Assembly (NCBI RefSeq): GCF_947500995.1
Contig: NZ_CANMUA010000010.1
Span: 1 to 64,000, forward strand
Direction: 5' to 3'
From: an uncultured Serinicoccus sp.
GTDB taxonomy: Bacteria; Actinomycetota; Actinomycetes; Actinomycetales; Dermatophilaceae
DNA length: 64,000 bases
Each line of letters opens with the position of its first letter. Position 1 is the stretch's first letter. Positions 34,931 through 54,337 of this stretch are shown piece by piece. Both the position numbers and the translations under genes were made by a program. The notes under the pieces were generated by a model. That model was not told the DNA's origin, did not search any database, and saw nothing but the letters and a program-made list of their open reading frames with translations.

Positions 34931-35058
34931 TAGGGCCACACGCCAGGGGGGCGCGTGGTTCACCTCCCACGTGGTCCGCATTGGCGGAGGCGCCAGGCTG
35001 GGGCCCCTGACAACGGAGCGGAGCGACGCATCGGAGGCGCTGCAGTCACCGTTATTGG

Positions 35059-35074
35059 TACAGTCAGTGCTGTA
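35059..35074. promoter_or_regulatory. Operator/promoter of the CmtR-like ArsR gene
   Basis: The perfect inverted repeat TACAG-N6-CTGTA sits 11 bp before the GTG start codon, and a TATAGT -10-like word (35073-35078) overlaps its right arm. ArsR/CmtR repressors bind this kind of dyad at the promoter. The -10 is so close to the GTG that the mRNA may be leaderless. Confidence 0.65.
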
Positions 35075-35085
35075 TAGTTCAGCGC

Positions 35086-36041: not shown

Positions 36042-36303
36042 CCAGAGCCGTCGGGACTTACGACCGTGCACCAGTTACCCGGCCTCCGCTTGCCCAACAC
36101 TCCTGAGGTTCCCTGGAAGAGCCGACGGAGCGCAGTAGCGGCAGACTGCCAAACCTCCAGCTGGCCACCGAAGAATCGGAGGGTGTGTCAGAGCGGGTCG
36201 CGGGGCTGCCGGCGTACCCGAGGGATGCCGAAGGTGTGCAGTGTCACGCGCAGCAGGAGGGTGCGGTGGAGTAGTCGCGGGATCGGCATACCGGATGTGG
36301 TGT
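36042..36303. other. Gap without a supportable gene
   Basis: Between the cadD stop and the merR stop I see only a short minus-strand frame (R-L-L-H-R-T-L-L-L-R-V-T-L-H near 36,250) without a start or a recognisable family. It could be the remnant of a deleted mer or transposase gene. It contains one of only two copies of the GGCATACC-type word that I found in 34.9-43 kb. Confidence 0.4.
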
Positions 36304-36729
36304 TCAGCGGCTGGAGGAGCGGTCCGTCAGTTGGCTGGTCGGGATGGCGTGGCAGACATGCTGGGGGAGGCACTGGCCGGGATCCAGCGTGGTCGCCCGA
36401 TGGCTGAGCCAGCGCACATGCTCGAGCAGTTCGCTGAGTTGAGAGAGCCGTGCTTGGAGTGCGGCGGCGTGGTCGGCCAGCAGGGTGGCGACGTGGTGGC
36501 AGGGTGCTTCGCTGATGTCGCGGGCTGAGATGACATCTCGGATTTGGGCGAGGGTCAGTCCCGCTGCCTGTGCGGCTCTGATGAATGCGAGCCGGTCCGC
36601 CGCGCTGGCGTCGTACTGCCGGTAGCCCGATGTGGTCCGTGCGGGCGCCGGTAGCACGCCGGCCGTTTCGTAGAACCGGATGGTCTTTGTGCTCACGCCG
36701 GTTGCCGCGGCCAACTCTCCGATGCGCAT
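36304..36729 (-). CDS. merR: MerR-family metal-responsive regulator
   Basis: A 141-residue protein starting MRIGELAAATGVSTKTIRFY. The metal-site cysteines are C77, C120 and C126, close to the three-Cys Hg(II) site of classical MerR (82, 117, 126). The C-terminus extends slightly beyond the site. It is divergent from merA and shares with it a promoter containing an 18-bp perfect palindrome, so it should activate merA on Hg(II) binding. Confidence 0.85.
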   Translation of the reverse strand: MRIGELAAATGVSTKTIRFYETAGVLPAPARTTSGYRQYDASAADRLAFIRAAQAAGLTLAQIRDVISARDISEAPCHHVATLLADHAAALQARLSQLSELLEHVRWLSHRATTLDPGQCLPQHVCHAIPTSQLTDRSSSR

Positions 36730-36745
36730 ACCTGCACCGTAGCTC

Positions 36746-36777
36746 TTGACCTTCCAGTGCACTGGAAGCCTTACGGT
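36746..36777 (+). promoter_or_regulatory. MerR-type promoter of merA
   Basis: TTGACC (36746-36751) and TACGGT (36772-36777) are separated by 20 bp, and the spacer holds the perfect dyad CTTCCAGTGCACTGGAAG (36751-36768). An over-long spacer (19-20 bp) with a palindrome inside is the hallmark of promoters activated by MerR-family proteins through DNA distortion. Confidence 0.85.
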
Positions 36778-36814
36778 CTAAGCGACCCTGCGTCCCGACC
36801 GGAAGAGAGCAGTC

Positions 36815-38182
36815 ATGGTCCAGTACGACTTGATCGTCATCGGCACCGGGGGTGCGGCCATGGCCGCCGGGATCGAGGCGCGCTCCCGCGGAAAGAGCGT
36901 GCTGCTGGTCGAGCATGGTCCGCTCGGCGGTACCTGTCTGAACGTGGGATGCATCCCGAGCAAGAGCTTGCTCGCTGCAGCTGGCCGGCGCCACCGGGCG
37001 CTGACCAGCCCGTTTCAGGGTGTGCCCACCAGTGCTGATGCCCCCGAGGTGGGGGAGCTGATGAACCAGAAGCAGGGGTTGGTCGAGCACCTGCGCCAGG
37101 CGAAGTACGTCGATGTCGCCGAGGCGCACGAGTTTGCCATCACCTACGGGCATGCGCGGTTTCTGGACGAGCACACGCTGCAGGTCGAGGACCAGATGTT
37201 GCGCGCGGCGTCGTACGTGATCGCCACCGGAGCAGCCCCGCTCATTCCGGACCTGACCGGCATGAGCGAGATCGAGTACCTGACGTCGAGCACCGCGATG
37301 GAACAGCAGGACCTGCCCGTCTCGATGGTCGTGCTGGGTGGGGGCTATGTCGGTCTGGAGCAGGCTCAGCTATGGGCCCAGCTGGGCGTTGACGTCACCC
37401 TCGTGGGCCGGATCGCCCCCTACGCCGAACCCGAGGTCGCTGACGTGCTGCGAAGCGTCTTCGCGCAGGACGGGATCACGGTGGTCGAGGAGCACGGGCG
37501 GGAAGTGGAACCCACCGCCGAAGGGGTCAAGGTCACCACGGTCAGCGGTGCTCAGGTCCAGGGCCAGCGCCTGCTGGTCGCCACCGGCCGCTACGCCAAC
37601 ACCACCGGTCTGGGACTGGAGGCCGCCGGGATCGGCACGGACGCCCGCGGCTTCATCGTCGTGGATGAGAACCAGCGCACGACCAACCAGCGGGTGTTCG
37701 CCGCCGGGGACGTCTGCGGTGCCCCGCAGTACATCTACGTTGCCGCGCAAACGGGCCGGGTCGCCGCGTCCGGTGCGCTCGGCGAGCTGTCTACCGTGGA
37801 CTACCGCGGCCTGCCCGGAGTCACGTTCACCACTCCTCAACTCGCCAGCGCCGGACTGACCGAAGCCCGAGCCCTGGAACTCGGCCACCACGCTGAGAGC
37901 CGGGTCCTGAGCGCGCAGGACATTCCGCGCGCCCTGGTCAACCAGGACACCCGCGGGGTCCTCAAGCTCGTCATCGACACCCAGACCCGCAAGATCCTGG
38001 GGGTGCATGCTGCGCTCGACGGTGCCGGGGAGCTCATGCTTGCCGCGACGTACGCCATCAAGTTCGGCCTCACCGTCGACGACCTGACCGACACGTGGGC
38101 GCCCTACCTCACGATGAGCGAAGCCCTGCGCATAGCAGCCGGTCTATTCCGCTCGACCATGCCCACCAGCTGCTGCGCCTGA
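36815..38182 (+). CDS. merA: Mercuric reductase
   Basis: A 455-residue flavoprotein disulfide reductase. The redox-active pair is in G-T-C-L-N-V-G-C-I-P-S-K, and the protein ends S-C-C-A, the vicinal C-terminal Cys pair that distinguishes MerA from lipoamide dehydrogenase. There is no N-terminal NmerA heavy-metal domain, and no merT/merP/merC uptake gene is nearby. It would reduce Hg(II) to Hg(0) with NADPH. It is preceded by GGAAGAG and by the MerR-type promoter. Confidence 0.9.
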   Translation: MVQYDLIVIGTGGAAMAAGIEARSRGKSVLLVEHGPLGGTCLNVGCIPSKSLLAAAGRRHRALTSPFQGVPTSADAPEVGELMNQKQGLVEHLRQAKYVDVAEAHEFAITYGHARFLDEHTLQVEDQMLRAASYVIATGAAPLIPDLTGMSEIEYLTSSTAMEQQDLPVSMVVLGGGYVGLEQAQLWAQLGVDVTLVGRIAPYAEPEVADVLRSVFAQDGITVVEEHGREVEPTAEGVKVTTVSGAQVQGQRLLVATGRYANTTGLGLEAAGIGTDARGFIVVDENQRTTNQRVFAAGDVCGAPQYIYVAAQTGRVAASGALGELSTVDYRGLPGVTFTTPQLASAGLTEARALELGHHAESRVLSAQDIPRALVNQDTRGVLKLVIDTQTRKILGVHAALDGAGELMLAATYAIKFGLTVDDLTDTWAPYLTMSEALRIAAGLFRSTMPTSCCA

Positions 38183-38315
38183 GGAGAGCCGGTGAGACGG
38201 TCGGTGCAGTAGTTCCGCCACATTCCGACGGCTGGCTGAACTACGCGGATCGACGTGCTTCGGCCGGAGCCGGAGCGCGGACGATGTAACCCTGAGCCCG
38301 TACAGCCAACTCCTC

Positions 38316-38385
38316 CATAACGTAAAGTGATGGTGTCCATCACGCCCGCCTATTGCCGCATACGGCGGTCGTTTGTGCGAACTTG
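38316..38385 (+). repeat. Eroded right-end-like sequence inside the transposon
   Basis: CATAACGTAAAGTGATG (38316-38332) matches 16 of 17 bases of 58609-58625 in the real right end. The last bases before 38386 (GTCGTTTGTGCGAACTTG) resemble GTCGCTGCGCAAGATTGG at the true right end. The terminal CTGCATCTCGACA is absent. I read this as the right end of an older related element that lost its terminal repeat. Confidence 0.6.
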
Positions 38386-38470
38386 TGTCGAGATGCAGCG
38401 GAGGTTGCACAATCCCGAGCACCCAACCTTGCCCGATCGGTTCCCTTGCGTCTCGTCGCGCAAGGTACGC
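38386..38470 (+). repeat. Internal second left end
   Basis: TGTCGAGATGCAG recurs exactly at 38386-38398. The next about 40 bp also follow the outer left end: GAGGTTGCACAATC corresponds to GAAGATTGCACGATC, then CCTTGCCCGA to TCTTGCGCGA, and a GCGCAAGG word follows at about 38,457. It therefore looks like a second complete left end. Between 38,183 and 38,664 I see these end sequences and no gene. Confidence 0.8.
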
Positions 38471-38664
38471 AGCCCGCTGGCGGTGACCGCCGTCCTGGAT
38501 TCAGGCCTTCGGTAGGTGACGGTCAGGACGCTTTGTGAGTGAGCGCGAAGGGGTCCACGCAGGTACACGCCCGCAGACCGACGAAGCAGGCGACTGGCGC
38601 CGCGCGAATCCCGCGCGGTCTGCAGAGTGGGGCGCCCGAGACTTGCGTCGGCCGAACCGGGTCC

Positions 38665-39303
38665 CTACGCATGATCTTCCGTAACACCGCGCCCCATGGA
38701 GGTCAACCACTGGTCCAAGTGCTCGACATTCGCCGCGGCCCCTCCTCTGCGAGCCTTAAACCAGGGCTGCTGCGCAGCCTGCTGGTTTAGTGCGTCGTTC
38801 TCGTCTTCATCCCATGGCCCTCCAAGGAGCAGGCAGCGGCCACCAAAAGTGGGCGTTGTGTGTTCGCTTTCTTCGTCAAGGTCCACTCCAAAAATACCAG
38901 CGGAGTTCTCGGGAGAAGTCTCGACCGCGTGCGCTACGAGGTACCCTTCCCCCACGATTCGACCTGTCGGGCTGATCTTGTTGGCTGCGAACGTGACCAA
39001 CCAACCGTTGTCGTCAGAGCCGGCAAGTCCATATCCTGAGCCACGGTAGATTCCCCAGTCGCGCTCCACCGGAAAGTTCTCTCCTCTACTGTCCAGCCGA
39101 TCGACGACAAGGCCAGTATCTGAGGCAAGCTGCCGAATTGTAGAATATTCCTTCACAAGAAACTCCTGTCGCTGTGCAAAGTCGTAACGGCTCGGGCTAG
39201 GCGGGGTTGCGATGGATGCATCGCTACTGCGATGTTCTTTGTCCGGCCAGTTGAGTCGAGACGAGCACTCCGCTAGACCGGGACTGCCTGGCCGGCGAGC
39301 CAC
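38665..39303 (-). CDS. Hypothetical protein at the end of the DarTG operon
   Basis: This encodes up to 212 residues. If it starts at the ATG at 39303, it overlaps darG by 31 bp; the true start may be further in. The sequence is acidic, with mixed alpha/beta character (E-R-D-W-G-I-Y-R-G-S-G-Y-G-L-A-G-S-D-D-N-G-W-L-V). I recognise no family. It uses more A+T-rich codons than the host genes. Its position suggests an accessory protein of the same defence operon. Confidence 0.55.
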   Translation of the reverse strand: MARRPGSPGLAECSSRLNWPDKEHRSSDASIATPPSPSRYDFAQRQEFLVKEYSTIRQLASDTGLVVDRLDSRGENFPVERDWGIYRGSGYGLAGSDDNGWLVTFAANKISPTGRIVGEGYLVAHAVETSPENSAGIFGVDLDEESEHTTPTFGGRCLLLGGPWDEDENDALNQQAAQQPWFKARRGGAAANVEHLDQWLTSMGRGVTEDHA

Positions 39304-40355
39304 CCGCGGTCGCGGAGCGCAGCGAGTGCCGACTGAACGTGGTTCGCCGTGAACATCCGCGACTTGCGGGGAGACCAGCCTTCGACCTGCCCCACCAAGT
39401 AATCCTCAGATACTTGTTGGTGATCAGCCTGGGTGGCGAGCCAATGCACGGTCGCAAGCAGTTCGAGCCCGTAGGCAGACTCGAATCCCGCAGCCAAGTC
39501 AAGCACGCGGTCGATCCGCGACCTAGTATCAGCGCGTTCCGCCAACGCTGCGACTGCTTCCTCGGTTGCACCCGGCAAGACCGTCAAGGGCTCAGCTTCC
39601 TGAACCGGCGCACTGGCGTCCCCGTAGCCATGGATGAAGTGGCCCTCGACCATGTGCAGGACATGCCGAAGGTTATCCGCGTACGGGCCGTAACGGTTGG
39701 CGGCGAAGTTCAGGCGCAGCGGTTCCCCTGCCGCCTGAAGGAAGTACATAAGTTTCTGTGACTCGATGAGGGAAGGTGGTGTCATTGCTTGCTGCGTGTA
39801 GCGCCGAAGGATTTCAACGAGGGCAGCTCGCCCTGCAGTCATCTTGGGCCTCGTCGTCGCCGTGGGCATCTGGCTGGCCGTAGGCGCTCCCTTAGGCGGG
39901 AATACGAGCACATCCACGTCTTCCTCTTGGGCGAACGTCTGAACGATCAGCGGTCGGACATCGCGCCAGTCGAGACCGCCGTTACCGCAGCCCAGCGGCG
40001 GTAACGCGATCGATCGAATCTGCAGATCCCTCGCAACTCGAACCAAGTCTTCTAGACCTGCCTCGATGTCGTGTAATCGCGACCTCGCTCTCCAATGGCC
40101 CTTGGTAGGGAAGTTGATAATGTAGCGCGGCCCCGTCATATGCTCAGTTGGCCATACGTGCACCTTGCCCAACTCGATGTCGCCAGCTTTGACGGCGCTT
40201 GTGTAGTCTACAAACATTGCCGGGTAGGCCTTCTTGAACTGCAGAGCGATGCCCTTGCCCATGACTCCTACCGTGTTGACGGTGTTCACCAGGGCGTCCG
40301 CGTCGGCCTGCAGGAGGTTGCCTGCGATCTCCTTGATCATCGCACTCTCTTCCAT
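39273..40355 (-). CDS. darG: DarG-type macrodomain antitoxin
   Basis: A 360-residue protein. The macrodomain is clear: G-N-L-L-Q-A-D-A-D-A-L-V-N-T-V-N-T-V-G-V-M-G at residues 12-33 and P-P-L-G-C-G-N-G-G-L at about 120. This domain removes ADP-ribose from DNA in DarG. The C-terminal domain (from about 180) matches the DarG extension that binds the toxin and carries the K-L-M-Y-F-L-Q segment. It starts 3 bp after the darT stop, so the two are co-translated. Confidence 0.92.
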   Translation of the reverse strand: MEESAMIKEIAGNLLQADADALVNTVNTVGVMGKGIALQFKKAYPAMFVDYTSAVKAGDIELGKVHVWPTEHMTGPRYIINFPTKGHWRARSRLHDIEAGLEDLVRVARDLQIRSIALPPLGCGNGGLDWRDVRPLIVQTFAQEEDVDVLVFPPKGAPTASQMPTATTRPKMTAGRAALVEILRRYTQQAMTPPSLIESQKLMYFLQAAGEPLRLNFAANRYGPYADNLRHVLHMVEGHFIHGYGDASAPVQEAEPLTVLPGATEEAVAALAERADTRSRIDRVLDLAAGFESAYGLELLATVHWLATQADHQQVSEDYLVGQVEGWSPRKSRMFTANHVQSALAALRDRGWLAGQAVPV

Positions 40356-40358
40356 GTC

Positions 40359-41021
40359 CTAGAAGTACCAGTTAGGACGGACAGTCGTTGGGGTGGCGAT
40401 TCCATGCCTGGCCAGTAACGCTCTGGCCTCGTGGGCCACCTGGCTGGAACTGGCGGCGACCTCCGTGAACGCCTCCCATGGCACGCCTCCGTGGACGAGG
40501 CATTCGGCCATACGTCGTTCCCTACGCGCCGGCTCATCAGGCGTGTTGTTCCAGTAGCGTGCACGCATTACCTCCCAGTCTATGAAGTCTTCCGGAGGCG
40601 CGTTACCTGGAACCAGCTCGTGGAAGGCCGCGTAGTCCAGGACGGCGTTCCTGTCGCTGAGTACGATCTGGAGAGCCAACCCCGCGAGCCGTTCGATGGT
40701 GGTCTGTAGGTAGAGCAGCCGGCCGCAGCCCTCCTGGTAGGTCGACACGTTGCCCCGATGGATCGCGTACAACATCGGGCTTCGAGGAGCGAAATAGAAC
40801 GGCGCATAGTCGGCGACTACGCCGCCAGGCTCGACGGGCACCTGACGGCATGTTCGCCGGGCCTTGATGTCCGTGTTGCCCACCTCGACTGTCATCAAGC
40901 CTAGGTCTTTGGCGCGTGCGTCTGAGAGCAGGCCCTGATCGATGATGGTCGACAAGTGCTCGATCCTCGTGAAGTGCCACACCGGCGCCGCCTGGGACCA
41001 ACACACGGGAGGTTCAGTCAT
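40359..41021 (-). CDS. darT: DarT-type DNA ADP-ribosyltransferase toxin
   Basis: A 220-residue protein starting MTEPPVCWSQ. Family motifs: W-H-F-T-R near residue 15, D-Y-A-P-F-Y-F-A-P-R-S-P-M-L-Y at 71-85, and the catalytic Glu E173 in R-M-A-E-C-L-V. DarT uses NAD to ADP-ribosylate thymidine in single-stranded DNA and can act against phage replication. The adjacent macrodomain antitoxin makes the call firm. A GTG 12 bp upstream is an alternative start. Confidence 0.92.
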   Translation of the reverse strand: MTEPPVCWSQAAPVWHFTRIEHLSTIIDQGLLSDARAKDLGLMTVEVGNTDIKARRTCRQVPVEPGGVVADYAPFYFAPRSPMLYAIHRGNVSTYQEGCGRLLYLQTTIERLAGLALQIVLSDRNAVLDYAAFHELVPGNAPPEDFIDWEVMRARYWNNTPDEPARRERRMAECLVHGGVPWEAFTEVAASSSQVAHEARALLARHGIATPTTVRPNWYF

Positions 41022-41120
41022 CTCCCAATGCACCTCCCTCACGAGTCTCGCATCTGACCCTGGGAGCATAGGCCCGGCACTCCGTGTTCGCCGACACGCT
41101 GTCCAGGGCTCCCTGTGTTG

Positions 41121-41765
41121 TCATGGGCCTGGAGCCGATGCACGTTCCGATGTCGAATCCGGAGCTGGCGGGACGGCGGGCGCAGCCGCCGTAGCCAACG
41201 CGCCGACCTGGAAAGCGATGGCGGCCAGTGCCAGGGCGAAGGCTCCGACCTGGTAAAACCAGACGAGCTTGTCGTCGGAGTGCATCGCCTTGCGCCGACT
41301 GAGCCAGCGAACAGCTCCGCGCGTCTGGTATGTGCTGCCTGCTGTGATGGACGCTGTCATGCCTGCCTCGGGCAGCGTTCGCTTGATCTCGTCCTCGATC
41401 TGGGTGCCGTGCTTCACCGAAGCCTTGAGGAGTGGGTGGTACCAGACGCGGTCGACGAAGTAGAAGGCGTACCACAGCAGAAGTCCGATCAAGATGACCA
41501 GGGACCCCAGGGAGAACCACCCGACCCGGGTACCGTCCTTGGCGGCTACGCCGGCTGCGCCCAGGGCGAACGTTGCCACGGTCAGCGCCAGTCCGCGGAT
41601 GCGCCACTCGATGTCGTTGAAGTGCATCTGTACGGCTACGGCCTGCTTCCACATGTCGATGTAGTGGCCGATCTCCTGGTCCCGGGTTAGACGTTCGGGA
41701 GAACCCTCCCCAGCGGGTCCACTCCCCTCGTCATCGATCGAGGTGCCGGGGTCCTCGCCGGTCAA
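41121..41765 (-). CDS. Membrane protein of unknown function
   Basis: This encodes up to 214 residues if the TTG at 41765, overlapping the HAD stop as TTGA, is the start; no ATG or GTG fits well. A conserved-looking stretch (H-Y-I-D-M-W-K-Q-A-V-A-V-Q-M-H-F-N-D-I-E-W) precedes two helices, then a soluble segment and one more helix near the C-terminus. I recognise no family. The arrangement, in a defence-type operon, is compatible with a membrane effector, but this is inference. Confidence 0.6.
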   Translation of the reverse strand: MTGEDPGTSIDDEGSGPAGEGSPERLTRDQEIGHYIDMWKQAVAVQMHFNDIEWRIRGLALTVATFALGAAGVAAKDGTRVGWFSLGSLVILIGLLLWYAFYFVDRVWYHPLLKASVKHGTQIEDEIKRTLPEAGMTASITAGSTYQTRGAVRWLSRRKAMHSDDKLVWFYQVGAFALALAAIAFQVGALATAAAPAVPPAPDSTSERASAPGP

Positions 41766-42655
41766 GGCGCACCCACCAGTGAGGCCCCGAAGACGGGCAG
41801 GATCTCGTTGATCTCGTGGTGGCAGATGAGTCCGGGAACGATCTCGCCACCTCCTTGGCTGAGGGCCGCTTCGCGTGCCACGTCCGCGTCGGTCCAGTGC
41901 GTGACTCGCCGCAAGAGGTCGTACTCGGGTCGCTTCTGGGCCTGGCCGTACGCTGCGTGGACATCCAGGACTCCTGCACCTTGTGCCATCGCGATGTCCT
42001 TCATGAGACTGTCGCCGAGGTAAGCGACCTCGTCCGGGGCGCATTGCTGTTCGGTCAGGATCTCCAGGAGCACTTGCTTGTTCGGCTTGAGGACACCCAG
42101 GGGTAGCTGGTTGTGCTGGGTGGCTTGCAACCCGTATGTGCCTGTGAACCGCCCTGTTCTGAGATCCTCAGGGGTGACGCCCGCGGCTACGTCATGATCG
42201 GGCGAGGAGTACAGCACGTCGATGACGCCGTCGAGACCCGTGTTTCGGAGACGCCACTCCGTCCAGTAGGCACCCGATTCGGTGTAGGCGACGACCCGTA
42301 CTCCCTGACGCTTAAGCACTTCGAACGTCTCGCCCACACCTGGGTACAGCCTGGTGGTGCGCTTGCGCGCGGAGTTCTGGGCGTGCAACGCCTCGTCGAA
42401 GACGTCGAACGGATCGTCCGGGCCAGCGAACTCGACCAGAGCGGGCACCTCGCGGACGAGGTTGGAGTACTCCGTGGTTCCTCGTCGCTGGTGGACCGCC
42501 TTGATCTGCTCCTCCAGTACCTGCCGGTCCAGGCCAGTGATGGAGACGAGCCCATCGAGCAAGGCGCTGAAGGATTGGTACCACGCCTCGAACCAGTCCC
42601 AGAGCGTGTTGTCCAGGTCTGTGATCAGCATGCGCGGTCCCGCCGTCATGATCAT
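41762..42655 (-). CDS. HAD-superfamily hydrolase
   Basis: A 297-residue protein. HAD motif I is D-L-D-N-T-L-W-D-W near residue 12, motif III includes L-K-P-N-K-Q-V, and motif IV is L-G-D-S-L-M-K-D-I. A helical cap lies between motifs I and II. Starts at 42655 or 42649 are both possible. It is the first gene of a five-gene minus-strand unit leading to darTG. Its substrate is unknown; a nucleotide phosphatase would suit the company. Confidence 0.8.
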   Translation of the reverse strand: MIMTAGPRMLITDLDNTLWDWFEAWYQSFSALLDGLVSITGLDRQVLEEQIKAVHQRRGTTEYSNLVREVPALVEFAGPDDPFDVFDEALHAQNSARKRTTRLYPGVGETFEVLKRQGVRVVAYTESGAYWTEWRLRNTGLDGVIDVLYSSPDHDVAAGVTPEDLRTGRFTGTYGLQATQHNQLPLGVLKPNKQVLLEILTEQQCAPDEVAYLGDSLMKDIAMAQGAGVLDVHAAYGQAQKRPEYDLLRRVTHWTDADVAREAALSQGGGEIVPGLICHHEINEILPVFGASLVGAP

Positions 42656-42697
42656 CACCCTAGAGGGAGGCACCGACAAGGGGCTGTACCGCGTGTC

Positions 42698-44362
42698 TCA
42701 TGCACGCTTGTGGAGGGCGTAAGCGAGTTCGAACTGTTGCTTGTCGTTGAGTGAGTTCTCGAACTGGCGGTAGAGGGCGCGTTCCTTGGCGGTGGGCCTG
42801 GTGCCTTGCCAGGTAGGTGAGAGGTCGAGGTGGGCGTGGGCGACGTGGACCCATTGCCAGGTCAGGGCGTAGCTGACGCTGGTGTAGTGGGTGCCGGGTC
42901 GGTGAAGGCGGGTCCATTCGTGGAACCAGCGGTTGGTCAGGTGGAGGCGGTGCTCGATCTTGGCTTCGGTGGCGCGGTAGTTGCGGGGCCGGACGTCGGT
43001 GATGGCTGCCCGGATGCGGTCCTGCCATTCCTGGGTGGTGGTGAGCCGGGTGGCGGAGCAGGCGCGGGCGCAGCGGGTGCCCATTGAGCCTGGCATGCCC
43101 AGGGCCTGAGCGGCGGCGGCCCAGGACGTGATGTCGGGGTGGAGCCGGGCCAGGCAGAGGGAAGCGAACTGGCGCACCACTTCCTCGCGACTGTCGAACG
43201 CTCCGACCAGGTGCTCGGCGTATTGCTGGTGCGGGATGACCTGGGGGATGGCGACGAGGTTGATCGGCATGCGGGCTCCGCGGTGGGGGTGGCTGTCGAG
43301 GTGGTGGGACAGGCGGCGGTGCGGGGCGCGGGCGGACAGCACGAGCCGCGACAGGGTTGGGGTCATCACGGTGCGATCGGCCAGCCATCCGAGCGGTCCG
43401 TCGTTTGCGGCCGGGGTGAGCTCGGTCCATGGCGTTAGCGCGGTCGCGGCGGTGTCGAGGTTCGCTGCGGCCAAGATTCTGTCGGCCATGGTGAGTGCGG
43501 CGGCGCGCAGCGCCGGTGGAGCGGGTGGGCGCATGCCCCAGCGCGGTCCTCGATCCCCGGTGCGTCGCTGGCTCTCGGGTAGCAGGTCGCTCGCCCAGCC
43601 GGCGAGCTGCTCGGCGCCGGGTCGGCAGGCCAGGTGGAGCAAGAGGGTGGTCAGGTGTCTCAGGTCACCCAGGTATGCCGCACCACCGGCCGGTTCTCCG
43701 AGGACCGTGACGGGCCGGTCGCTGAGGGCATTGTCGATGCGAGCCTGTGTGACCAGGAGGGGGTCGTCGACCGTGGTGGTAGGGATGGCGGCGAGGTCGT
43801 GCTGGCACTGGCTGGTGGGTCCAGCGCCGAGGGGGTTCCCGCAAATCGTGCCTGCGCCGACCGGGCGCAGGTGGGAGTGGCGTTGGTCGCGGAAAGGCCG
43901 CCGGCAGCTGGGGCAGGCGGCGGCGAGCAGGGTTCCGTGGCGGGTGCAGGCGGTGACGATCATTAGACGCCAGGCGCTCTGCCAGGTGCCGGTCTGGGCG
44001 AGGCAGGGCGGGCAGATCTGAGTACCATGCGCAGGGGTCCATCCTCGTGAGGCCACCTGCCGGTAAGAGTGTCGATCAAGGGCGTCGAGACCGGTCAGGT
44101 CGAGGGCGGTTCCGTCGAACCTGGCGAGGGTGGCGTCCCGGACGGTGTCCGGGGTGGTGCGACCCAGCTCGGCAAGGGCACGGATCGTGCCTGGTGCCGG
44201 CGCGAGAGTCAGGTACCGGGTGCTGGCACCGCGGCTGCGCAGGTGGGTCAGGAGCTGGGCGGTGGTCAGGCCGTTGGCGTCGGCGAGGTGCTCAAGCCAG
44301 GACTCGATGGATTCTCCATCGCGGGGGCTTATGGAGATCGGCAGTGCGGGTGCAGCGGTCAT
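42698..44362 (-). CDS. tniQ: TniQ/TnsD-family target-selection protein, first copy
   Basis: A 554-residue protein starting MTAAPALPISISPRDGESIE, with the TniQ-type segment S-W-L-E-H-L-A-D-A-N-G-L at residues 19-30. The zinc cluster is complete: C-P-P-C, then C-T-R-H, then C-P-S-C. The long C-terminal region with a helix-turn-helix-like part (A-A-A-Q-A-L-G-M-P) is what TnsD-like proteins use to read DNA. The ATG overlaps the WhiB stop (ATGA), so it is the last gene of the tns operon. Its size is closer to TnsD than to short TniQ. Confidence 0.85.
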   Translation of the reverse strand: MTAAPALPISISPRDGESIESWLEHLADANGLTTAQLLTHLRSRGASTRYLTLAPAPGTIRALAELGRTTPDTVRDATLARFDGTALDLTGLDALDRHSYRQVASRGWTPAHGTQICPPCLAQTGTWQSAWRLMIVTACTRHGTLLAAACPSCRRPFRDQRHSHLRPVGAGTICGNPLGAGPTSQCQHDLAAIPTTTVDDPLLVTQARIDNALSDRPVTVLGEPAGGAAYLGDLRHLTTLLLHLACRPGAEQLAGWASDLLPESQRRTGDRGPRWGMRPPAPPALRAAALTMADRILAAANLDTAATALTPWTELTPAANDGPLGWLADRTVMTPTLSRLVLSARAPHRRLSHHLDSHPHRGARMPINLVAIPQVIPHQQYAEHLVGAFDSREEVVRQFASLCLARLHPDITSWAAAAQALGMPGSMGTRCARACSATRLTTTQEWQDRIRAAITDVRPRNYRATEAKIEHRLHLTNRWFHEWTRLHRPGTHYTSVSYALTWQWVHVAHAHLDLSPTWQGTRPTAKERALYRQFENSLNDKQQFELAYALHKRA

Positions 44363-44673
44363 GCGGTTCTGCGTCGTGGCTTGTGAGGGTCGCGGAGGCG
44401 GTAGGTGTCTTCGCGGCCGTTGCGGTAGGCGCGGCCGCCGGCGATCCCTGTGTACCCGGACAGCTCGGCCAGGTCGGCGCACTCGGCGACGATTGGGCAT
44501 CCGGCGCAGACCTCGGCCGGTGCGATCAGGGCCCGGGTGCGGTCGTCGACGGCCTCGGCCGTCAGGTAGTGGCGTTCCCACCGGCCCCAGCGGGTGGCCA
44601 TGCCCTTGCAGTTCCCGTCCGCCAGGCTCCAGGCGGCGTCGCGGGCCAGGACCTCGCGGCTGATGCCCCTCAT
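44359..44673 (-). CDS. WhiB-family iron-sulfur regulator inside the transposition operon
   Basis: A 104-residue protein. The four cysteines are in G-N-C-K, C-A-G-C and A-E-C, the WhiB 4Fe-4S arrangement. The usual G-V-W-G-G turn is altered to T-G-I-A-G-G, and a basic tail follows (R-L-R-D-P-H-K-P-R-R-R-T). It overlaps the preceding and following genes by 4 bp each, so it is translated as part of the tns operon. WhiB proteins act with sigma factors or bind DNA, so this one could tune transposition to redox state. Known WhiB proteins are actinobacterial or phage-borne. Confidence 0.85.
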   Translation of the reverse strand: MRGISREVLARDAAWSLADGNCKGMATRWGRWERHYLTAEAVDDRTRALIAPAEVCAGCPIVAECADLAELSGYTGIAGGRAYRNGREDTYRLRDPHKPRRRTA

Positions 44674-44954
44674 CGACTGACTCCTGTCGCGGTGCACTCG
44701 GCGGGTTCGAGGGTCGCGGCGCTGACCGTGATGCTGTCCAGCAGCTCCGTGCCCGCGCCGTAGTCGGACAGGAGCTGGTGCTGCAGGTCGGCGCGTGCCT
44801 CGGTAGCCTCCTGCTCGCTCAGGTAGCAGGCGACGGGATCCTGGCAGTCCCACACCAGCCACACCCGTTGCTCGGGTCGGGCGGAAGTGCAGCTGGCGGC
44901 GGTCAGGAGGTTTTCGACGATGAGGCGCAGCTCTTCGAAGTAGCTGGCGTCCAT
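44670..44954 (-). CDS. Small protein of unknown function in the tns operon
   Basis: A 94-residue acidic protein starting MDASYFEELRLIVENLLTAA. I recognise no family. Its start lies inside the preceding small frame and its stop overlaps the whiB start. The residues just upstream in this frame (V-S-A-M-D-A-S-Y-F) read like a natural continuation of the 46-residue frame at 44903-45043, so it may be the C-terminal part of one protein split by a frameshift. Confidence 0.6.
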   Translation of the reverse strand: MDASYFEELRLIVENLLTAASCTSARPEQRVWLVWDCQDPVACYLSEQEATEARADLQHQLLSDYGAGTELLDSITVSAATLEPAECTATGVSR

Positions 44955-45043
44955 CGCCGAGACGGGGTGTCGCCAATGGCCCTGAGGAAGCGCCTGGCCA
45001 CCTGCGTCAAGGACTCGACGGAGAGCGTGTCGTCGGGTGTCAT
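44903..45043 (-). CDS. Very small ORF coupled to tniQ (possibly the N-terminus of the next gene)
   Basis: This is a 46-residue frame, MTPDDTLSVESLTQVARRFL and onward. It has a strong AGGAGG site 5 bp before the ATG, and the ATG overlaps the tniQ stop. The first about 27 residues look like a normal helix; the rest is Ser/Lys-rich and looks out of frame. A one-base shift at about 44,963 would join it to the 94-residue frame and give a protein of about 124 residues. It is real as a translation start; its length is uncertain. Confidence 0.5.
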   Translation of the reverse strand: MTPDDTLSVESLTQVARRFLRAIGDTPSRRWTPATSKSCASSSKTS

Positions 45044-46452
45044 CCGTACCTCCTGGCGATGCCGGCCCACGTGGTCTGGGTGGCGGGGATCTGGAGCAGG
45101 TCGGTGTCGGCGAGGAGTTGCTGCCCGGTCTCGTGCAGCAGCAGCCGCGTCTCGGGGTCGATCCGCTTGTCGAATGCGGCGACGTCTCGGTCGGGGGTGG
45201 TGGGCCAGGGGCTGGAGCGCATGGGGCCGTGGGTGAACCTGGTCCAGATCCATGCCAGCGCCAGTCTCCTGAAGGCCGGTTTCGTCGCGATCGCCGTGGG
45301 CAGCCGCCGGTGGGTGGTCTTGGGCAGCCGGCTGACGGGTCGAAGAGTGTCGCGGCGGCGCTGGTAGTCGATCAGCCCGGCCGCGAGCAGCTCCTGCAGC
45401 GCGGTGGTGAGCAGGTCGCCGTCCTGCTCACGCATGCCCTGCCCTGCGTCGATGCCGTCGATGAGGACGCAGGAGGGGATACCCGCGATCCCGAGCGCGG
45501 CCATCGCCTCTCCCGGCGTCGCGGTATCGCCGGTGGCCTGGCTGATGAGCATGTGCAGTGCGGTGGCGGCACGGGTCAGCGACAGCCACGCCCCGGGCTT
45601 CCGAGCGTCGTCGCCCTGGGGTGGGGGGAGCATGCTGGGGACGTGGCCCGTGCGCAGGTCGTCGTGATCTACGTGGTGGCGCAGCCGGGTGAGGAACCAG
45701 TCGAGCCGGTCGCGGTCGGCGTCGGTGAAGAGGGCCGTTTGGTGGCAGCGCAGGTGAGCCGGCTTGCTGCGTCGACCACGTCGTCGTCCGGTGAGGACGA
45801 GCAGCGCCGCGACGGTGGCCGGGTCCGGACAAGGGTAGGCACCCCACCGTCGAGCCGCGGCCAGGTCCACCGGTGGCAGGTCCCCACCCAGGTCCAAGGA
45901 GTCGCCGTTGAGGGTGGCAGCCAAGTCTTGGCAGCGGCGTCGCCGCCGGTACAGCACCTGTCTGGCGCCTCGGTCCTCGACCGAGGCCTCGGCCAGCCTT
46001 GCCAGGGTCTGGACGATCTCAAGGACGCGCGGGGGCGCGGGCACGGCGACGTGCGGGGAGCGGGCTCGGATCAGGTAGCAGGAGCAGTGCAGGCAGACCG
46101 GGACCAACGCGGTCTGCCACAGCAGCTCCCGGTGGCCGGTCGACACTGTGCAGGACGGGCAGACCCAGGCCACGGCGTGGTGCAGTCGCCATCCGTGGCG
46201 TCGCTGGGGCCCGTGGCCACGGATGGCCAACGGGTAGCGGTCCATCGTCAGCTGCGTCGCCGCCCCTGGGTCGAGCGCGGCGAGGGAGCCGATCGCGGAC
46301 AGCTCCCTCATCGGGACGTCGATGTCGTGCCGCCACGCCGGGAGGACCCGGCCCCGGGCCAGGCCGTTGGCGTCGGCCAGCCGGGCCGCATACGAGGACA
46401 GCGGCTCCCCGGGGCGGGGCGCGGGCCTGACCGGCAGCGGGGAGGCGCTCAC
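45040..46452 (-). CDS. tniQ: TniQ-family protein, second copy (next to TnsC)
   Basis: A 470-residue protein starting at GTG 46452, overlapping the tnsC stop as GTGA. The N-terminus (P-L-P-V-R-P-A-P-R-P-G-E-P-L-S-S-Y-A-A-R-L-A-D-A-N-G-L) is typical of TniQ. The first zinc knuckle, C-P-S-C, is intact, but the second half reads C-L-H-C-S-C and lacks the last C-x2-C, so zinc binding may be altered. It differs from the copy at 42698, which suggests an old duplication or separate roles in target choice. Confidence 0.85.
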   Translation of the reverse strand: MSASPLPVRPAPRPGEPLSSYAARLADANGLARGRVLPAWRHDIDVPMRELSAIGSLAALDPGAATQLTMDRYPLAIRGHGPQRRHGWRLHHAVAWVCPSCTVSTGHRELLWQTALVPVCLHCSCYLIRARSPHVAVPAPPRVLEIVQTLARLAEASVEDRGARQVLYRRRRRCQDLAATLNGDSLDLGGDLPPVDLAAARRWGAYPCPDPATVAALLVLTGRRRGRRSKPAHLRCHQTALFTDADRDRLDWFLTRLRHHVDHDDLRTGHVPSMLPPPQGDDARKPGAWLSLTRAATALHMLISQATGDTATPGEAMAALGIAGIPSCVLIDGIDAGQGMREQDGDLLTTALQELLAAGLIDYQRRRDTLRPVSRLPKTTHRRLPTAIATKPAFRRLALAWIWTRFTHGPMRSSPWPTTPDRDVAAFDKRIDPETRLLLHETGQQLLADTDLLQIPATQTTWAGIARRYG

Positions 46453-47516
46453 GAGGCACCCACCTTGGCCCGACGCTTCGAGGGCCGGGCCGTCGCGGTG
46501 CGCAGGTCGACCTCGCCCGCGGTCGCCCTGGCCGACAGGGGGACGGCGTCGAGGTGGTCGGTGGTGATCGTCTCCGAGCCGTCGTCGAACGCGGCCAGCA
46601 GAGCCTCGGTGAGCAGCAGGGCCGTGTCGCCGACGTAGCCCTGGGAGCGGCGCCAGATATGGCCGGCGAGGTCGCGGGCGAACACCCCCGGCGGGGCACA
46701 GTCGAAGTAGGGCAGCAGGACGGCCTCGGCGTCCTTGAGGAACCGCTGCCATTCCCGCTTCTCCTCCTCAGTGGCGAACCCGTAGGGGCGCAGCGTGACC
46801 CGTTCGAGGCGAGCGTTGATCTGAGGGTCCAGATAGATCGGCGAGTCGTGCAGGTCGGCGCCGATGAGGATCATCGTGCCGCCCAGCTCACCGAGCTCGG
46901 TGTTCAGGTACTTGAGGAAGTCGAGCATGTCCCGGGAGTCCTTGTTGGACACGTCCAGGAAGTGGGCGTCGTCGATCAGCAGCAGCCGCACCCCGTGCTG
47001 CCGGAAGGCGTGCACCACCCGTGTCGTGGTGACCCGGACCAGGCCCTCGCTGGGGTAGCCCATCGTGAGCAGCAGCGCGGCGAGCACGTCACGGATCCTG
47101 GAGGCGGCCCGCAGAGTGATGTAGGCGTGCGGGATCCAGTCCGCGGTCACCCCCGGTTCGGGGTTCCACGTCGGCCGCGGGTCCGCGCAGGCGGGGCCGA
47201 GCAGGTCTCGGTATGCCGCCTGCGCCCAGTCCTTGACGAACGTGGACTTGCCAACCGCGAACGGGGCGCTGACCGACCCGATCGCCTTCGCACCAGGCGG
47301 TCGAAGCGCGTTGCGCTCCACCAGCCGGGTCAGTCGCGTGGTGGCACGCCGCGCCAGCACCGACGGCAGGACCACGGTCGCCAACCCAGAGCTGAGCACC
47401 TCCCAGTGGGCGTCCTGATCCGCGTCCGGCATCTCGTCGAACACCTCCACCCGTACCGGCGCGGGAAGCTCGACCGGTGGCGCGGTCGCTTGCTGGTGCC
47501 ACAGGCGCGCGTCCAT
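46449..47516 (-). CDS. tnsC: TnsC/TniB-family AAA+ ATPase
   Basis: A 355-residue protein. The P-loop reads A84-P-F-A-V-G89-K90-S91-T92: the first Gly of GxxxxGK(S/T) is Ala, which is unusual. Walker B is R-L-L-L-I-D-D-A-H at 177-185. The lid domain and C-terminal basic tail follow. It is the regulator that links TniQ-marked targets to the transposase. The ATG overlaps the tnsB stop by one base (TGATG), and the stop overlaps the tniQ start. Confidence 0.9.
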   Translation of the reverse strand: MDARLWHQQATAPPVELPAPVRVEVFDEMPDADQDAHWEVLSSGLATVVLPSVLARRATTRLTRLVERNALRPPGAKAIGSVSAPFAVGKSTFVKDWAQAAYRDLLGPACADPRPTWNPEPGVTADWIPHAYITLRAASRIRDVLAALLLTMGYPSEGLVRVTTTRVVHAFRQHGVRLLLIDDAHFLDVSNKDSRDMLDFLKYLNTELGELGGTMILIGADLHDSPIYLDPQINARLERVTLRPYGFATEEEKREWQRFLKDAEAVLLPYFDCAPPGVFARDLAGHIWRRSQGYVGDTALLLTEALLAAFDDGSETITTDHLDAVPLSARATAGEVDLRTATARPSKRRAKVGAS

Positions 47517-49708
47517 CAGATCGCCTCCTCGTCGTAGTCCGGAAGCGCGGCGTCGAAGTCGAACGGGTCCTCGGCCCCGTCGGGCGTCGTGCTTGGCTCT
47601 GGCCGGCGGATCCTCGGCAGCCCCGCCGCGGCCTGCTCCTCGAGCACGCGGTGAGCGTCGGCGACCTCGGCATGGTCGCGTTGCGATTGCTCCCAGCGCA
47701 GTTGCGCTGCCGCGAGTCTGGCGCGCCACTCGTCCGTAGTCGGGGCGGTGGTGAGCTCCCCGATCTCCTCGATGATCTGGCGCATGATGCGGGTCCTGTT
47801 GATGGATCGGTTGCCGCCGCGCTCCTTTATCCGCTCAAGCGCGCGGTCGCGGACGACATCGCCGAGGGGTGCGTGGATCAGGTGCCGGGCCTTCCACGGG
47901 ATCTCGTGGATCCGGTCGGTGTCCGGGTGGCGGAACCAGAGGCGTGTCACGTCGCGCGGGTCGATGTGGAAGGGCATGGCCGAGTCCTGGGCGCGGAAGG
48001 TGCCGGGCCTAACCGAACGGAAGTCCTCGAGGACTACAGCGTCATAGGTCAGGTTCTTGTGCTCGACACCGGCGTGCCCGGGGGACAGCCAGATGATCGG
48101 GAGGAACTGGTAGAGCAGGTCGGGGTGCTGCGGCACGAGGATCCGGCCCGTTGCGTCCGCGAGGGCGTCGTGCATCTCCAAGGGGGTCAGGCGGATGCCC
48201 GGTGCTCCGGGCAGGGTGAGTCCGTCGTGCGGCATCCGGTGGTAGTCGAGGGCGACCCATCGTCGGAAGTGGCGCTCGAGCTCGTCGGCGGTCAAGAGCG
48301 GCTCGTCCGCCTCGATGCCGATGAAGCGTCCCCGCTGGTGGATGGAGCGGCCCTTGTATCCGGGCACCTGCTGGTAGGCCCGTTCGAGGTCCTCCATCTT
48401 CCGCTCGGAGTGCGGGTTGTCCGTGGGCTTCTTGCCGCGCGAGAGCCGCAACTCGATGCCGAAGTGGTTCAGCAGGGCGCGGAAGTGCTCGCCGACGAAG
48501 ATGCTGCCGTGGTCGCTGCGCAAGGAGGTGGGGGCCACCCCGGGCAGGTAGTGCACTCCTTGGATCGTCAGGTCACGCTTGACAGTGGGTCGTCTGCCGA
48601 TGTGGACGGGGTTGCCGCCCAGATCGAGGGACTCGGGGATGCCGCACCAGCGGAAGTCATCGATGGTGGTGCCGTCGACGACCATGGCGAACTGCCGCAT
48701 GGCGTCATAAATGAGGAGCCCGACGTCGATGCCGCGGGCTCCCCGCGGAAACACTCGTATGCCGTGGATGACCCGTGTGGCGATCGAGTGGATGACGCCG
48801 ACCTCGACGTTGATGGCGCGCTCCCGCAGGGGGTCGAGGACGAAGTTGTTGGCGATGGTCAGGTCGGTGGCGAGCTCGGACGGGTGCTGGGCCGGGTAGC
48901 TCTGGTGTCCGGCGACTCGGCGCAGGGACTTGGAGCGTTGGGCCCGCACTGAGGATCCGGTCGCTCGCCAGTGGTAGCTGAGGAATTCCTGGGTGATCCG
49001 GTCCGGCAGGTGCGGGTCGGTGATGCCCTCGTTCTTGAGGGCCACGCGGATCTGTCGTTCGATCTCCTGCAGGTTGGGCCGGCTCTTCGAGCCGTCGTAC
49101 TGCGCGAACTTTTCCAGGGCAAGCCGTCTGAAGTCGGCATCGATGACGTCGAAGGCCTGTCGGCCCTTGATTGCGCGCCCGTCGACGAGGCGCCGAAGCC
49201 CGCCGCTGGCCCAGAGGTTGTCCCACCGTTGCAGCGTGCGGGGGGCGATCCTGTGGTCTTGCAGTTCCCCGTCGTAGACCCGGCGCATCACCGCCCGGTC
49301 GGTGAAGCGTTCGAAGGAGACGACTTTGCTCATCTCGCGGTACCGCGCCGCCAGGCTGAGGCCGAAGTCGTCACCGAACGGGTAGAAGGGCTCACCGGGC
49401 TGGGCGAGCTCGCGCAGCCCGAAGCGGAACCCGGTCCGTGCCTCGAGGACGCATTCCTGCTTGAAGAGTGCCTCGCGGCGCACCGAATCCTCGAGCTGAA
49501 GCCACCACGGGAACAGGGAGACGTGGACGGCCTGTGGACCGTCGTCACCGACCGATCGCGCCTGAAGCTGGGTGAAGGTCACGGACCGGTCTTCTCCGGT
49601 GGAGAAGCGCAGACGCACCCCGTGGCGCTCCAGGTCCGTGACGACCGCGTAACCGTCCTCGCTCAGGATCCGCGACCCGAGCGTGAGGGGAACGGCCGGG
49701 TCGCTCAC
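47516..49708 (-). CDS. tnsB: TnsB/TniA-family DDE transposase
   Basis: A 730-residue protein starting at GTG 49708, overlapping the tnsA stop. The DDE residues are D282 (A-T-D-L-T), D399 (R-S-D-H-G-S) and E435 (N-P-H-S-E-R), with the last two 36 apart as in retroviral-type integrase folds. N-terminal DNA-binding domains and a C-terminal Mu-type barrel surround the core. The C-terminal tail is acidic (D-P-F-D-F-D-A-A-L-P-D-Y-D-E-E), like the TnsB tail that contacts TnsC. It breaks and joins the 3' ends. Confidence 0.93.
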   Translation of the reverse strand: MSDPAVPLTLGSRILSEDGYAVVTDLERHGVRLRFSTGEDRSVTFTQLQARSVGDDGPQAVHVSLFPWWLQLEDSVRREALFKQECVLEARTGFRFGLRELAQPGEPFYPFGDDFGLSLAARYREMSKVVSFERFTDRAVMRRVYDGELQDHRIAPRTLQRWDNLWASGGLRRLVDGRAIKGRQAFDVIDADFRRLALEKFAQYDGSKSRPNLQEIERQIRVALKNEGITDPHLPDRITQEFLSYHWRATGSSVRAQRSKSLRRVAGHQSYPAQHPSELATDLTIANNFVLDPLRERAINVEVGVIHSIATRVIHGIRVFPRGARGIDVGLLIYDAMRQFAMVVDGTTIDDFRWCGIPESLDLGGNPVHIGRRPTVKRDLTIQGVHYLPGVAPTSLRSDHGSIFVGEHFRALLNHFGIELRLSRGKKPTDNPHSERKMEDLERAYQQVPGYKGRSIHQRGRFIGIEADEPLLTADELERHFRRWVALDYHRMPHDGLTLPGAPGIRLTPLEMHDALADATGRILVPQHPDLLYQFLPIIWLSPGHAGVEHKNLTYDAVVLEDFRSVRPGTFRAQDSAMPFHIDPRDVTRLWFRHPDTDRIHEIPWKARHLIHAPLGDVVRDRALERIKERGGNRSINRTRIMRQIIEEIGELTTAPTTDEWRARLAAAQLRWEQSQRDHAEVADAHRVLEEQAAAGLPRIRRPEPSTTPDGAEDPFDFDAALPDYDEEAI

Positions 49709-50454
49709 GGCATGTCCCGGAGCGCACGAATAGGAGTCGTTCGGCCTATCGGCTGGTCGAGGTCGACGACGAGGGCACCAATCCAGGCGTAGTGCCACAT
49801 CGCGCTGACCAGATGCCCTGCGCCTCGGTCCGCGTCCAGAACCACCCCGACGTTCGCGCCGGGATCCCGGCAGATCCGGACGAGCTCGTCCCGGGCGGCC
49901 GGGTACCACGGCATCGCCCGCCGGTATGCCGTTAGCCACCGCACGTTGTCCCGCCGCACGGGCGAGGCGCCGCCGTAGACCCGATAGCCCCACCCCACCT
50001 CGACGCACGCTGCCTCGGTCAGGTCGCGATTCTCGACGAACTTCTCGTCCTGCCGCTGGACGGGCCGGACGTCCCAGATGGTCACGGCACTCTCCCGCCC
50101 GAGCACCAGGAGGTCGGGAGTGTGCACTCGGGACCGACCGTCAGCCGTCCTGAGCCCGAGCCTGACGGGTTGCGACATCATCCACTTCACGTCCGGGTCA
50201 CGGTCGAGCTCACGCACCAGGTCGTGCTCAAGCCCGGACTCCAGACGGATCGGACCGTCGAGCGTGACGGAGTGAGCCTGGACAGGGATGTGGCGGCTCT
50301 TCTCCGTCGATCGCGGGGCACGGATCGAACGCAAGGCACGCACATCAGGCGGCCCGGTCGTCCAGTCCCAGACCTGAGGGCCGGTGTCGAACCGGAACGT
50401 CCAAGAGACCACACGGGCTGGCCGCGGGCACACGGCATCCCTAGACTGACCCAT
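49705..50454 (-). CDS. tnsA: TnsA-like endonuclease subunit
   Basis: The protein has 249 residues. Candidate catalytic residues are E72/E76 (L-E-S-G-L-E-H-D), D114 (H-T-P-D-L-L-V) and the strand W-D-V-R-P at 127-131, where the usual Lys of the restriction-enzyme fold is R130. This D-V-R-P form is, as I recall it, common in actinobacterial TnsA-like proteins. TnsA cuts the 5' ends, allowing cut-and-paste transposition, in line with the clean 5-bp duplication here. A GAGGA site lies before the ATG. It is the first gene of the operon. Confidence 0.85.
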   Translation of the reverse strand: MGQSRDAVCPRPARVVSWTFRFDTGPQVWDWTTGPPDVRALRSIRAPRSTEKSRHIPVQAHSVTLDGPIRLESGLEHDLVRELDRDPDVKWMMSQPVRLGLRTADGRSRVHTPDLLVLGRESAVTIWDVRPVQRQDEKFVENRDLTEAACVEVGWGYRVYGGASPVRRDNVRWLTAYRRAMPWYPAARDELVRICRDPGANVGVVLDADRGAGHLVSAMWHYAWIGALVVDLDQPIGRTTPIRALRDMP

Positions 50455-50788
50455 GACGGATCCTCGCTTTCGCAGCGTTCAGTCGGGTCTGTCGCTGAGG
50501 GCGTACCGGTAGCAGCCGGTGCGCCCTCACTCCGTCCGGAGCGGGGGCGAAGAGACCTAAGGGGAACCTAGCGGAGTGCTGCCCCTAGCGCAACCATTTC
50601 CGTCCAGTTATGCGCAGTTCCCACCTCCCGTGGTGTCAGTTGGAGAGATGTCGCTGCACGCGCATGGCTCCGCTGCTCACTTGCTGTGACCCGTCTACTT
50701 TTGGACGTTGTGGCCGGTCAGATCGGCTAGTCATAAATCCCGCGGCTCGCCGCCGCTAAGATCGCCATTAACGACTAGAGGAGATACC
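50455..50788. other. Divergent promoter region between tnsA and the zinc-finger gene
   Basis: This 334-bp gap holds the hairpin at 50496-50529 and a more A+T-rich stretch at about 50,590-50,790, including TTATGCGCAG and CATTAACGACTAG near the right-hand gene. It should contain the promoters of the tns operon and of the gene at 50789. No ORF here is convincing. Confidence 0.6.
50496..50529. promoter_or_regulatory. Hairpin in the leader of the tns operon
   Basis: Arms at 50496-50509 and 50516-50529 form a 14-bp stem with one mismatch (GAGGGCGTACCGG against CCGGTGCGCCCTC) and a 6-nt loop. It ends 42 bp upstream of the tnsA ATG. It could be an operator dyad for the element's regulator or an RNA hairpin limiting read-through or translation of the transposition genes. 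Confidence 0.6.
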
Positions 50789-51223
50789 ATGGGGCGCCTA
50801 CCAACCACGATGCCTGACCAGCATCCCGAGCGCCGAGGTGGCGCCTTGAAGCGAACCTTGCAGACCTACCTGCAGTCCATCGCCGAGCCTGTCGCGACCG
50901 ACGTCGTGAGCGGCCTGGAGGAGACCGTGCAGCCGGGAACCGAGTACCGGTGCCTCAACCCCGTGTGCGATCAGATGTGCGCGTGGCCGTCCGGGTACGC
51001 AGCCGGCAGACCCACGAGGTTCTGTTCGCGCAGCTGCCGTCAAATGTTCGACCGGGTGCGCTCACGTCTGTCGTGGGAGCTCGCGACCCTGGAGGAATGG
51101 CTGCTGCACGACGACCTGCCGGCCAAGGATCGCGTGGCACTGGAGCGCGCCGCCGGCCAGCGCCGGTGGGCCCTGGAGCGCTACCCCGACACCGGGGTGG
51201 GGGCCGGCCGGCCCACGTCCTGA
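50789..51223 (+). CDS. Small Cys-rich (zinc-ribbon-like) protein
   Basis: A 144-residue protein preceded by AGAGGAGAT. Residues about 55-85 hold a Cys cluster (Y-R-C-L-N-P-V-C-D-Q-M-C, then R-F-C-S-R-S-C-R-Q) resembling a zinc finger that binds nucleic acid. A helical C-terminal part follows. I recognise no named family. It is divergent from tnsA and convergent with hsdR (12 bp between stops), and may be a transposon-encoded DNA-binding protein. Confidence 0.65.
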   Translation: MGRLPTTMPDQHPERRGGALKRTLQTYLQSIAEPVATDVVSGLEETVQPGTEYRCLNPVCDQMCAWPSGYAAGRPTRFCSRSCRQMFDRVRSRLSWELATLEEWLLHDDLPAKDRVALERAAGQRRWALERYPDTGVGAGRPTS

Positions 51224-51235
51224 CCTTGGAGTGGG

Positions 51236-54334: not shown

Positions 54335-54337
54335 GCC

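Follow-up and report, generated by a model that had tools for sequence, protein, structure and literature searches.

The window, the 64,000-nucleotide stretch of uncultured Serinicoccus sp. DNA analysed here, contains a mobile element inserted beside the helicase gene dnaB, with a WhiB-like gene between two tniQ genes. Its features are as follows.

34845-34849 and 58701-58705: 5-bp duplication CTGGT, flanking both ends of the insertion
34850..58700: whole insertion with inverted TGTCGAGATGCAG ends, 23,851 bp
38386..38398, plus strand: second left-end copy inside the insertion
42698..44362, minus strand: tniQ2, 554 aa; Pfam TniQ, E 5e-20
44359..44673, minus strand: WhiB-like gene, 104 aa; cysteines 22, 56, 59 and 65; GIAGG replaces G[V/I]WGG
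44670..45043, minus strand: orfY; window copy split by a frameshift (45043-44903 and 44954-44670)
45040..46452, minus strand: tniQ1, 470 aa; Pfam TniQ, E 2e-10
46449..47516, minus strand: tnsC/tniB ATPase; TniB match over the cut-off
47516..49708, minus strand: tnsB transposase; weak rve match, under the cut-off
49705..50454, minus strand: tnsA, endonuclease-like; PF08722, E 1e-4, just under the cut-off
50497..50528, minus strand: dyad/stem-loop in the tnsA leader, 32 bp, 43-74 nt before tnsA
58766..61999, minus strand: dnaB, containing an intein; 66 bp separate its stop from the element

The element is a Tn7-like transposon, as established by its gene content, ends, 5-bp duplication and fixed site. 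TGT/ACA inverted ends are bordered by a 5-bp target duplication, tnsA, tnsB, tnsC and tniQ occur together (TniQ and TniB matches exceeding the cut-off, the TnsA-like and rve matches falling under it), and the insertion is fixed beside a conserved gene, dnaB. A genus-mate (G838, L121) has the empty site: its sequence follows the window through 34849, resumes at 58701 and contains CTGGT once.

The left-end copy at 38386 lacks a matching duplication when paired to 58700, and the segment between the two left-end copies (34850-38385) encodes a cadmium transporter and merA, that is, cadmium and mercury genes. A 1,478-bp piece of this segment, 99.8% identical, adjoins dnaB in another genome (G843, L119), and for this reason the dnaB site seems, from sequence comparison, to take repeated insertions. 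A type I restriction system and a DarT-DarG toxin-antitoxin pair (39273-41069) are further cargo of the window element. We noticed no CRISPR array in the repeats between 33000 and 59000. The intein of the window dnaB includes a LAGLIDADG domain, and alignments with several genus-mates are gapped over it.

A tightly coupled tns-tniQ operon

Translation, Pfam matching and a reading of the junctions place tnsA-tnsB-tnsC-tniQ1-orfY-whiB-tniQ2 in a single minus-strand operon. As the original prediction had proposed, a WhiB-type gene lies between the two tniQ genes with 4-bp overlaps (GTGA or ATGA), which we found at five junctions of the operon; at the remaining one, tnsB/tnsC, the overlap is 1 bp, a single base being common to the stop codon and the tnsC ATG (TGATG). 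The same prediction counted "one or two small proteins" here. Small-protein coding is indeed present, but as one gene, orfY, of 125-131 aa in nine relatives. Pairwise alignment with orfY of L025 revealed 1 nt and then 12 nt missing from the window copy, and the break may be a real frameshift or an assembly error. Searches of Pfam, NCBIfam and PHROGs with orfY and the neighbouring extra ORFs returned no function-naming match, and Foldseek of an orfY model (pLDDT 75) against the PDB returned nothing at E<=0.001.

We found two ARRANGEMENTS among the loci carrying whiB, the majority order being tniQ1-orfY-whiB-tniQ2. All eight relatives with this first arrangement that were read keep 4-bp overlaps at tniQ1/orfY, at orfY/whiB and between whiB and the next ATG; in L026, L027, L032 and L084 a gap or extra ORFs separate whiB from tniQ2. 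In L090 and L093, orfY is cut down to 69 aa and whiB follows tniQ2, and the tniQ2/whiB junction in this reversed order is an ATGA overlap in L093 and the fragment L156 and a short gap in L090. Positions 14822-14909 of L090 hold the final 28 codons of a tniQ2 of the window type. This tail stands by itself after a whiB that belongs to another tniQ2 lineage, and is possibly a sequence trace of replacement at the site.

A WhiB-related protein without the motif tryptophan

WhiB proteins hold an oxygen- or NO-labile [4Fe-4S] cluster. The Pfam WhiB model (PF02467) matched the window protein alone at E 0.011 and 16.7 bits, short of the curated cut-off of 23.6; 11 of 13 members matched at E<=1, with a best E of 0.0066 and single-sequence scores below the cut-off. 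Kinship with WhiB draws support from a match to the PHROGs 'WhiB-like' family (E 5.3e-5), a comparison at profile level to canonical WhiB proteins (E 4.1e-5, probability 70%, 34 columns) and a PDB profile search in which the sole two matches at E<=10 were WhiB1 (E 0.17) and WhiB4 (E 0.93), neither significant alone.

According to two published accounts (PMC6282962, PMC10245118), the motif G[V/I]WGG and four cysteines are common to all WhiB proteins, and canonical members are transcription factors that bind region 4 of sigma-A. The tryptophan of this motif is placed within a loop linked to the sigma contact. The mobile-element proteins resemble Wbl proteins in their four cysteines (conserved without exception in the 13 copies aligned), C-x2-C-x5-C spacing, GxxGG turn and basic C-terminal tail, and differ from them in scoring below the Pfam cut-off and in the motif tryptophan, which is replaced by Ala or Ser in 13/13 copies and present in 20/20 aligned canonical sequences. 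We therefore rejected canonical WhiB membership, as the tryptophan is absent and no Pfam-level score is reached: of the predicted "WhiB iron-sulfur protein", the kinship stands, but not the canonical regulator. Absence of the tryptophan throughout weakens a classical sigma-dependent role, and this mobile-element subfamily probably works other than through sigma-A in the usual way.

The predicted structure of the WhiB-like protein was poor (pLDDT 61) and Foldseek against the PDB gave no match at E<=0.001. Of five WhiB-like proteins compared with NCBIfam, none was named WhiB; phage records gave no match to the protein, and viral contigs yielded neither a tniQ2 relative nor a relative of the WhiB alignment.

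Distribution among related elements

A scan of 186 genomes of the family at E<=1e-20 identified tniQ2 relatives in 25, whose neighbourhoods were read with the window's proteins and a WhiB profile. Ten of these genomes have a whiB-bearing locus (G000, G386, G847, G825, G776, G277, G837, G840, G833, G835), 12 have only operons without whiB (G761, G774, G789, G798, G286, G803, G807, G808, G811, G832, G883, G094) and three have only fragments or contig ends (G753, G792, G812). Both kinds of locus occur in G833 and G835. With seven tniQ2 matches, G833 has whiB-bearing remnants adjoining a whiB-less operon near dnaB (L087, L089, L097) and a further stretch of similar kind about 330 kb away. Several operons are damaged: tnsA and tnsC are interrupted in L031, tniQ2 is split in L101 and tnsB in L094, and in L098 (G832) no tnsA was seen and tnsB is partial.

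The WhiB alignment comprises 13 loci of 11 genomes, L089, L097 and L111 being remnants, and tniQ or tns genes, or their remnants, always lie alongside. Scanning the same 186 genomes with this alignment matched 15, among which G832 is the sole whiB-less genome, its match lying about 140 kb from the tns operon in a different context. Two matching genomes had no tniQ2 match at E<=1e-20: in G861 (L156) whiB follows a tniQ2 end, and in G848 (L160) a degenerate-looking copy, outside the 13 aligned, sits at a contig end. An orfY-whiB fragment at a contig end was found in G817 (L159). Three loci from named genome contigs all have the gene: L025 (Mobilicoccus caccae), whose contig is also that of G825; L026, whose contig is also that of G835:C43; and L027, from a Propionicimonas bin (4.1 kb).

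Outside the family, the tns loci lacking whiB were Gordonia pGKT2 (L028), L034, L105 and L106, the last with tniQ2 oriented against tnsC and tnsB and hence a different operon. A class-wide sample of 394 genomes gave seven tniQ2 matches and five WhiB-profile matches, the window's own genome counted in both; the class-wide WhiB-profile matches that were read (L161, L162 and L163, leaving out G502) had no tns match.

Where TnsB identity to the window exceeds 60%, all loci read carry whiB (window, L025, L031, L082, L093, L090); operons without it are common at about 32-52% identity, and both states occur at 50-52% (L084 with, L105 without). Checked against the refuting conditions of the original prediction, no locus read above 60% TnsB identity lacks the gene, but loci without it are common further out; in one lineage whiB lies behind tniQ2 and not between the tniQ genes.

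Selection and inheritance

The WhiB-like gene is under purifying selection, with dN/dS of 0.11-0.38 across 10 pairs. For tniQ1 and tniQ2, 16 of 17 pairs gave values of 0.21-0.40 and the other gave 0.51, and orfY was looser (0.28-0.78, eight pairs). Across the eight whiB-bearing elements compared, WhiB identity correlated with that of TniQ2 (r 0.91) and TniQ1 (r 0.84, Spearman only 0.57), and had correlations of 0.40 with TnsC (Mantel 0.018), 0.39 with TnsA and 0.25 with TnsB. The correlation with the TniQ proteins could possibly come from physical linkage alone.

Exchange has separated whiB from tniQ2: when the window is compared with L025/L031, the silent divergence of whiB (0.20-0.22) is like that of tnsB and tniQ1 (0.22-0.29) and unlike that of tniQ2 (0.71-0.76). 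Trees built by a quick method also point to module exchange, as L084 has whiB and a tnsB that groups with whiB-less elements. The presence or absence of whiB requires two changes on the tnsB tree and three on the tniQ2 tree, the latter count taking in a lone fragment (L087) labelled whiB-less, with gain and loss not told apart.

These data bear on whether the gene is a passenger that landed in the operon by chance and persists there through linkage. It is missing from many operons of this type, its position varies between lineages, linkage could explain its co-inheritance, and the L160 copy at a contig end looks degenerate. Yet purifying selection, four cysteines intact in 13/13 copies and overlaps kept in eight of eight relatives are hard to square with a chance passenger, and we regard this explanation as quite improbable. 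The proposal that the gene belongs to the machinery and is not loose cargo is borne out by its place in the operon, the preserved overlaps and purifying selection in related elements. The WhiB-like gene is machinery of one lineage, neither random cargo nor essential to the element type.

Insertion at dnaB with and without whiB

To compare insertion sites we measured dnaB positions against operon positions on the same contig, leaving out G286 and G116. Operons with whiB (tnsA to tniQ2) lie within about 18 kb of dnaB in eight of eight cases (window, G386, G847, G825, G776, G837, G840, G277), and of 14 fetched whiB-less operons for which dnaB is on the contig, 13 are no more than about 11 kb from it (G761, G807, G811, G789, G803, G883, G774, G094, G808, G798, G835, G833, G671). 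The G832 operon lies beyond this distance, as does a second G833 copy at 3552197, outside the 14; a rearranged tns locus in G441 is about 6 kb from dnaB.

Since whiB-less relatives also sit at dnaB, use of this site is independent of the WhiB-like protein. A co-factor needed for insertion at dnaB, one form of the new targeting co-factor originally suggested, was accordingly rejected. We infer that tniQ2 reads the dnaB site.

A leader dyad and possible transcriptional control

Dyads scoring 11-13 of 13 occur upstream of tnsA in 10 of 10 whiB-bearing loci and 12 of the 15 whiB-less loci examined, with near-copies among them, so that the counts are not independent; no such dyad was found upstream of tnsA in L103, L035 or L028. 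In 60 mononucleotide shuffles per stretch, the score was reached in 0-2 of 60 (22 loci). The arms change yet still pair, and a C/A mismatch recurs. An Rfam search of the leader gave one sub-threshold match only, on the opposite strand. We consider the dyad a candidate operator or RNA hairpin of the transposon group; judged by its distribution, it does not look specific to WhiB. WhiB as its binder is disfavoured, the dyad being found in whiB-less loci too.

The protein could instead be an element-borne transcription regulator of the tns operon or of host genes, perhaps responding to redox state. Canonical WhiB proteins bind sigma-A region 4 and element-borne regulators are already known (PMC6282962, PMC10245118; PMC9938897). 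The basic tail would suit such a role, and in a class-wide relative, L162, a possible helix-turn-helix (E 0.0046, short of the cut-off) comes after the WhiB-related domain. This reading is weakened by the Ala or Ser at the motif tryptophan in all 13 copies, by the dyad in whiB-less loci and by the location of the gene inside the operon, coupled to the tniQ genes. Transcriptional control is the main rival to our preferred reading, possible though less likely than not.

Tryptophan-less relatives beside FtsK-type genes

A YTG[IL]A[AG]G-like stretch is present in proteins of L157, L158, L161 and the Cellulosimicrobium plasmid pCPRO01 (L030). The upstream gene matches FtsK/SpoIIIE in L158 and L030 and resembles it by eye in L157 and L161. 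A small gene lies between the tryptophan-less WhiB-like genes and these FtsK-type genes, with short overlaps in L158, L161 and pCPRO01. One could imagine the tryptophan-less mobile-element branch as a redox-labile subunit of DNA-mobilisation machines, namely the TniQ complex and FtsK-type modules, with O2 or NO gating transfer; we consider this generalisation doubtful.

That relatives near FtsK-type genes free the family from a strict tie to TniQ would also suit a structural zinc or Fe-S protein that acts on a host protein or competing element and has no part in transposition control, as would the want of a function-naming match (Pfam, NCBIfam, PHROGs) for orfY and the adjoining ORFs. Such a protein would not be expected to maintain coupling to tniQ genes in both gene orders, and we hold this reading to be improbable.

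A proposed accessory of the TniQ module

Our preferred reading, to which we give a probability of about 0.4, is that the WhiB-like protein is an acquired accessory of the TniQ module in one dnaB-targeting Tn7-like lineage, likely acting through contact with TniQ or TnsC. A relative of WhiB bearing a four-cysteine metal site would have been recruited to the target-selection (TniQ) module as an accessory, and translational coupling would lead to its being made in step with TniQ1, OrfY and TniQ2. It would most likely contact a TniQ protein or TnsC and adjust where or when the transposase switches on. If it holds a [4Fe-4S] cluster labile to oxygen or NO, as in WhiB proteins, this step would track the redox state of the cell. 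The binding partner, the cluster and the effect on transposition are what we infer here; it is the cysteines alone that make redox sensing plausible.

The constant company of tniQ or tns genes, or their remnants, across the 13 loci supports the accessory reading, as do the invariant cysteines, the preserved overlaps, purifying selection, the closer correlation of WhiB with TniQ2 and TniQ1 than with TnsA, TnsB or TnsC, and the absent tryptophan; the 12 of 25 family genomes with whiB-less operons only, and the unlike silent divergence of whiB and tniQ2, count against it. We favour contact with the target complex over transcriptional control by analogy with the small proteins L29, ACP and S15, which help TniQ/TnsD.

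Relation to known systems

CRISPR-guided insertion tools derive from Tn7-like elements, and to our knowledge little is known of how their TniQ step is naturally tuned. A lineage with a WhiB-related four-cysteine protein fixed in its TniQ operon allows a direct test of redox-gated transposition and indicates that WhiB-like proteins include a subfamily of mobile elements. The presence of this gene within the TniQ operon hints that transposition may follow the chemical state of the cell. A search of full texts, with most subscription journals outside it, found no earlier account of WhiB in a Tn7-like or TniQ element, the word occurring only in a reference title.

Tn7-like transposons with two TniQ proteins, such as the type I-B CRISPR-associated ones (PMC11406308), have tnsA, tnsB, tnsC and two tniQ genes in common with the window element, together with a fixed site by a conserved gene and a 5-bp duplication; unlike them, the window element is inserted at dnaB and has orfY and a WhiB-like gene within the operon. 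The regulators CvkR and Arc of type V-K CRISPR transposons are likewise regulator-like genes fixed in a Tn7-like lineage, although they are MerR- or Arc-type DNA-binding repressors (PMC9938897), whereas the window gene is WhiB-like and lies inside the tns operon. The working analogy for the proposed role is offered by L29, ACP and S15, described in PMC11406308 as small proteins aiding the TniQ/TnsD target complex; these helpers are host-encoded, whereas the candidate WhiB-like helper is encoded by the element itself.
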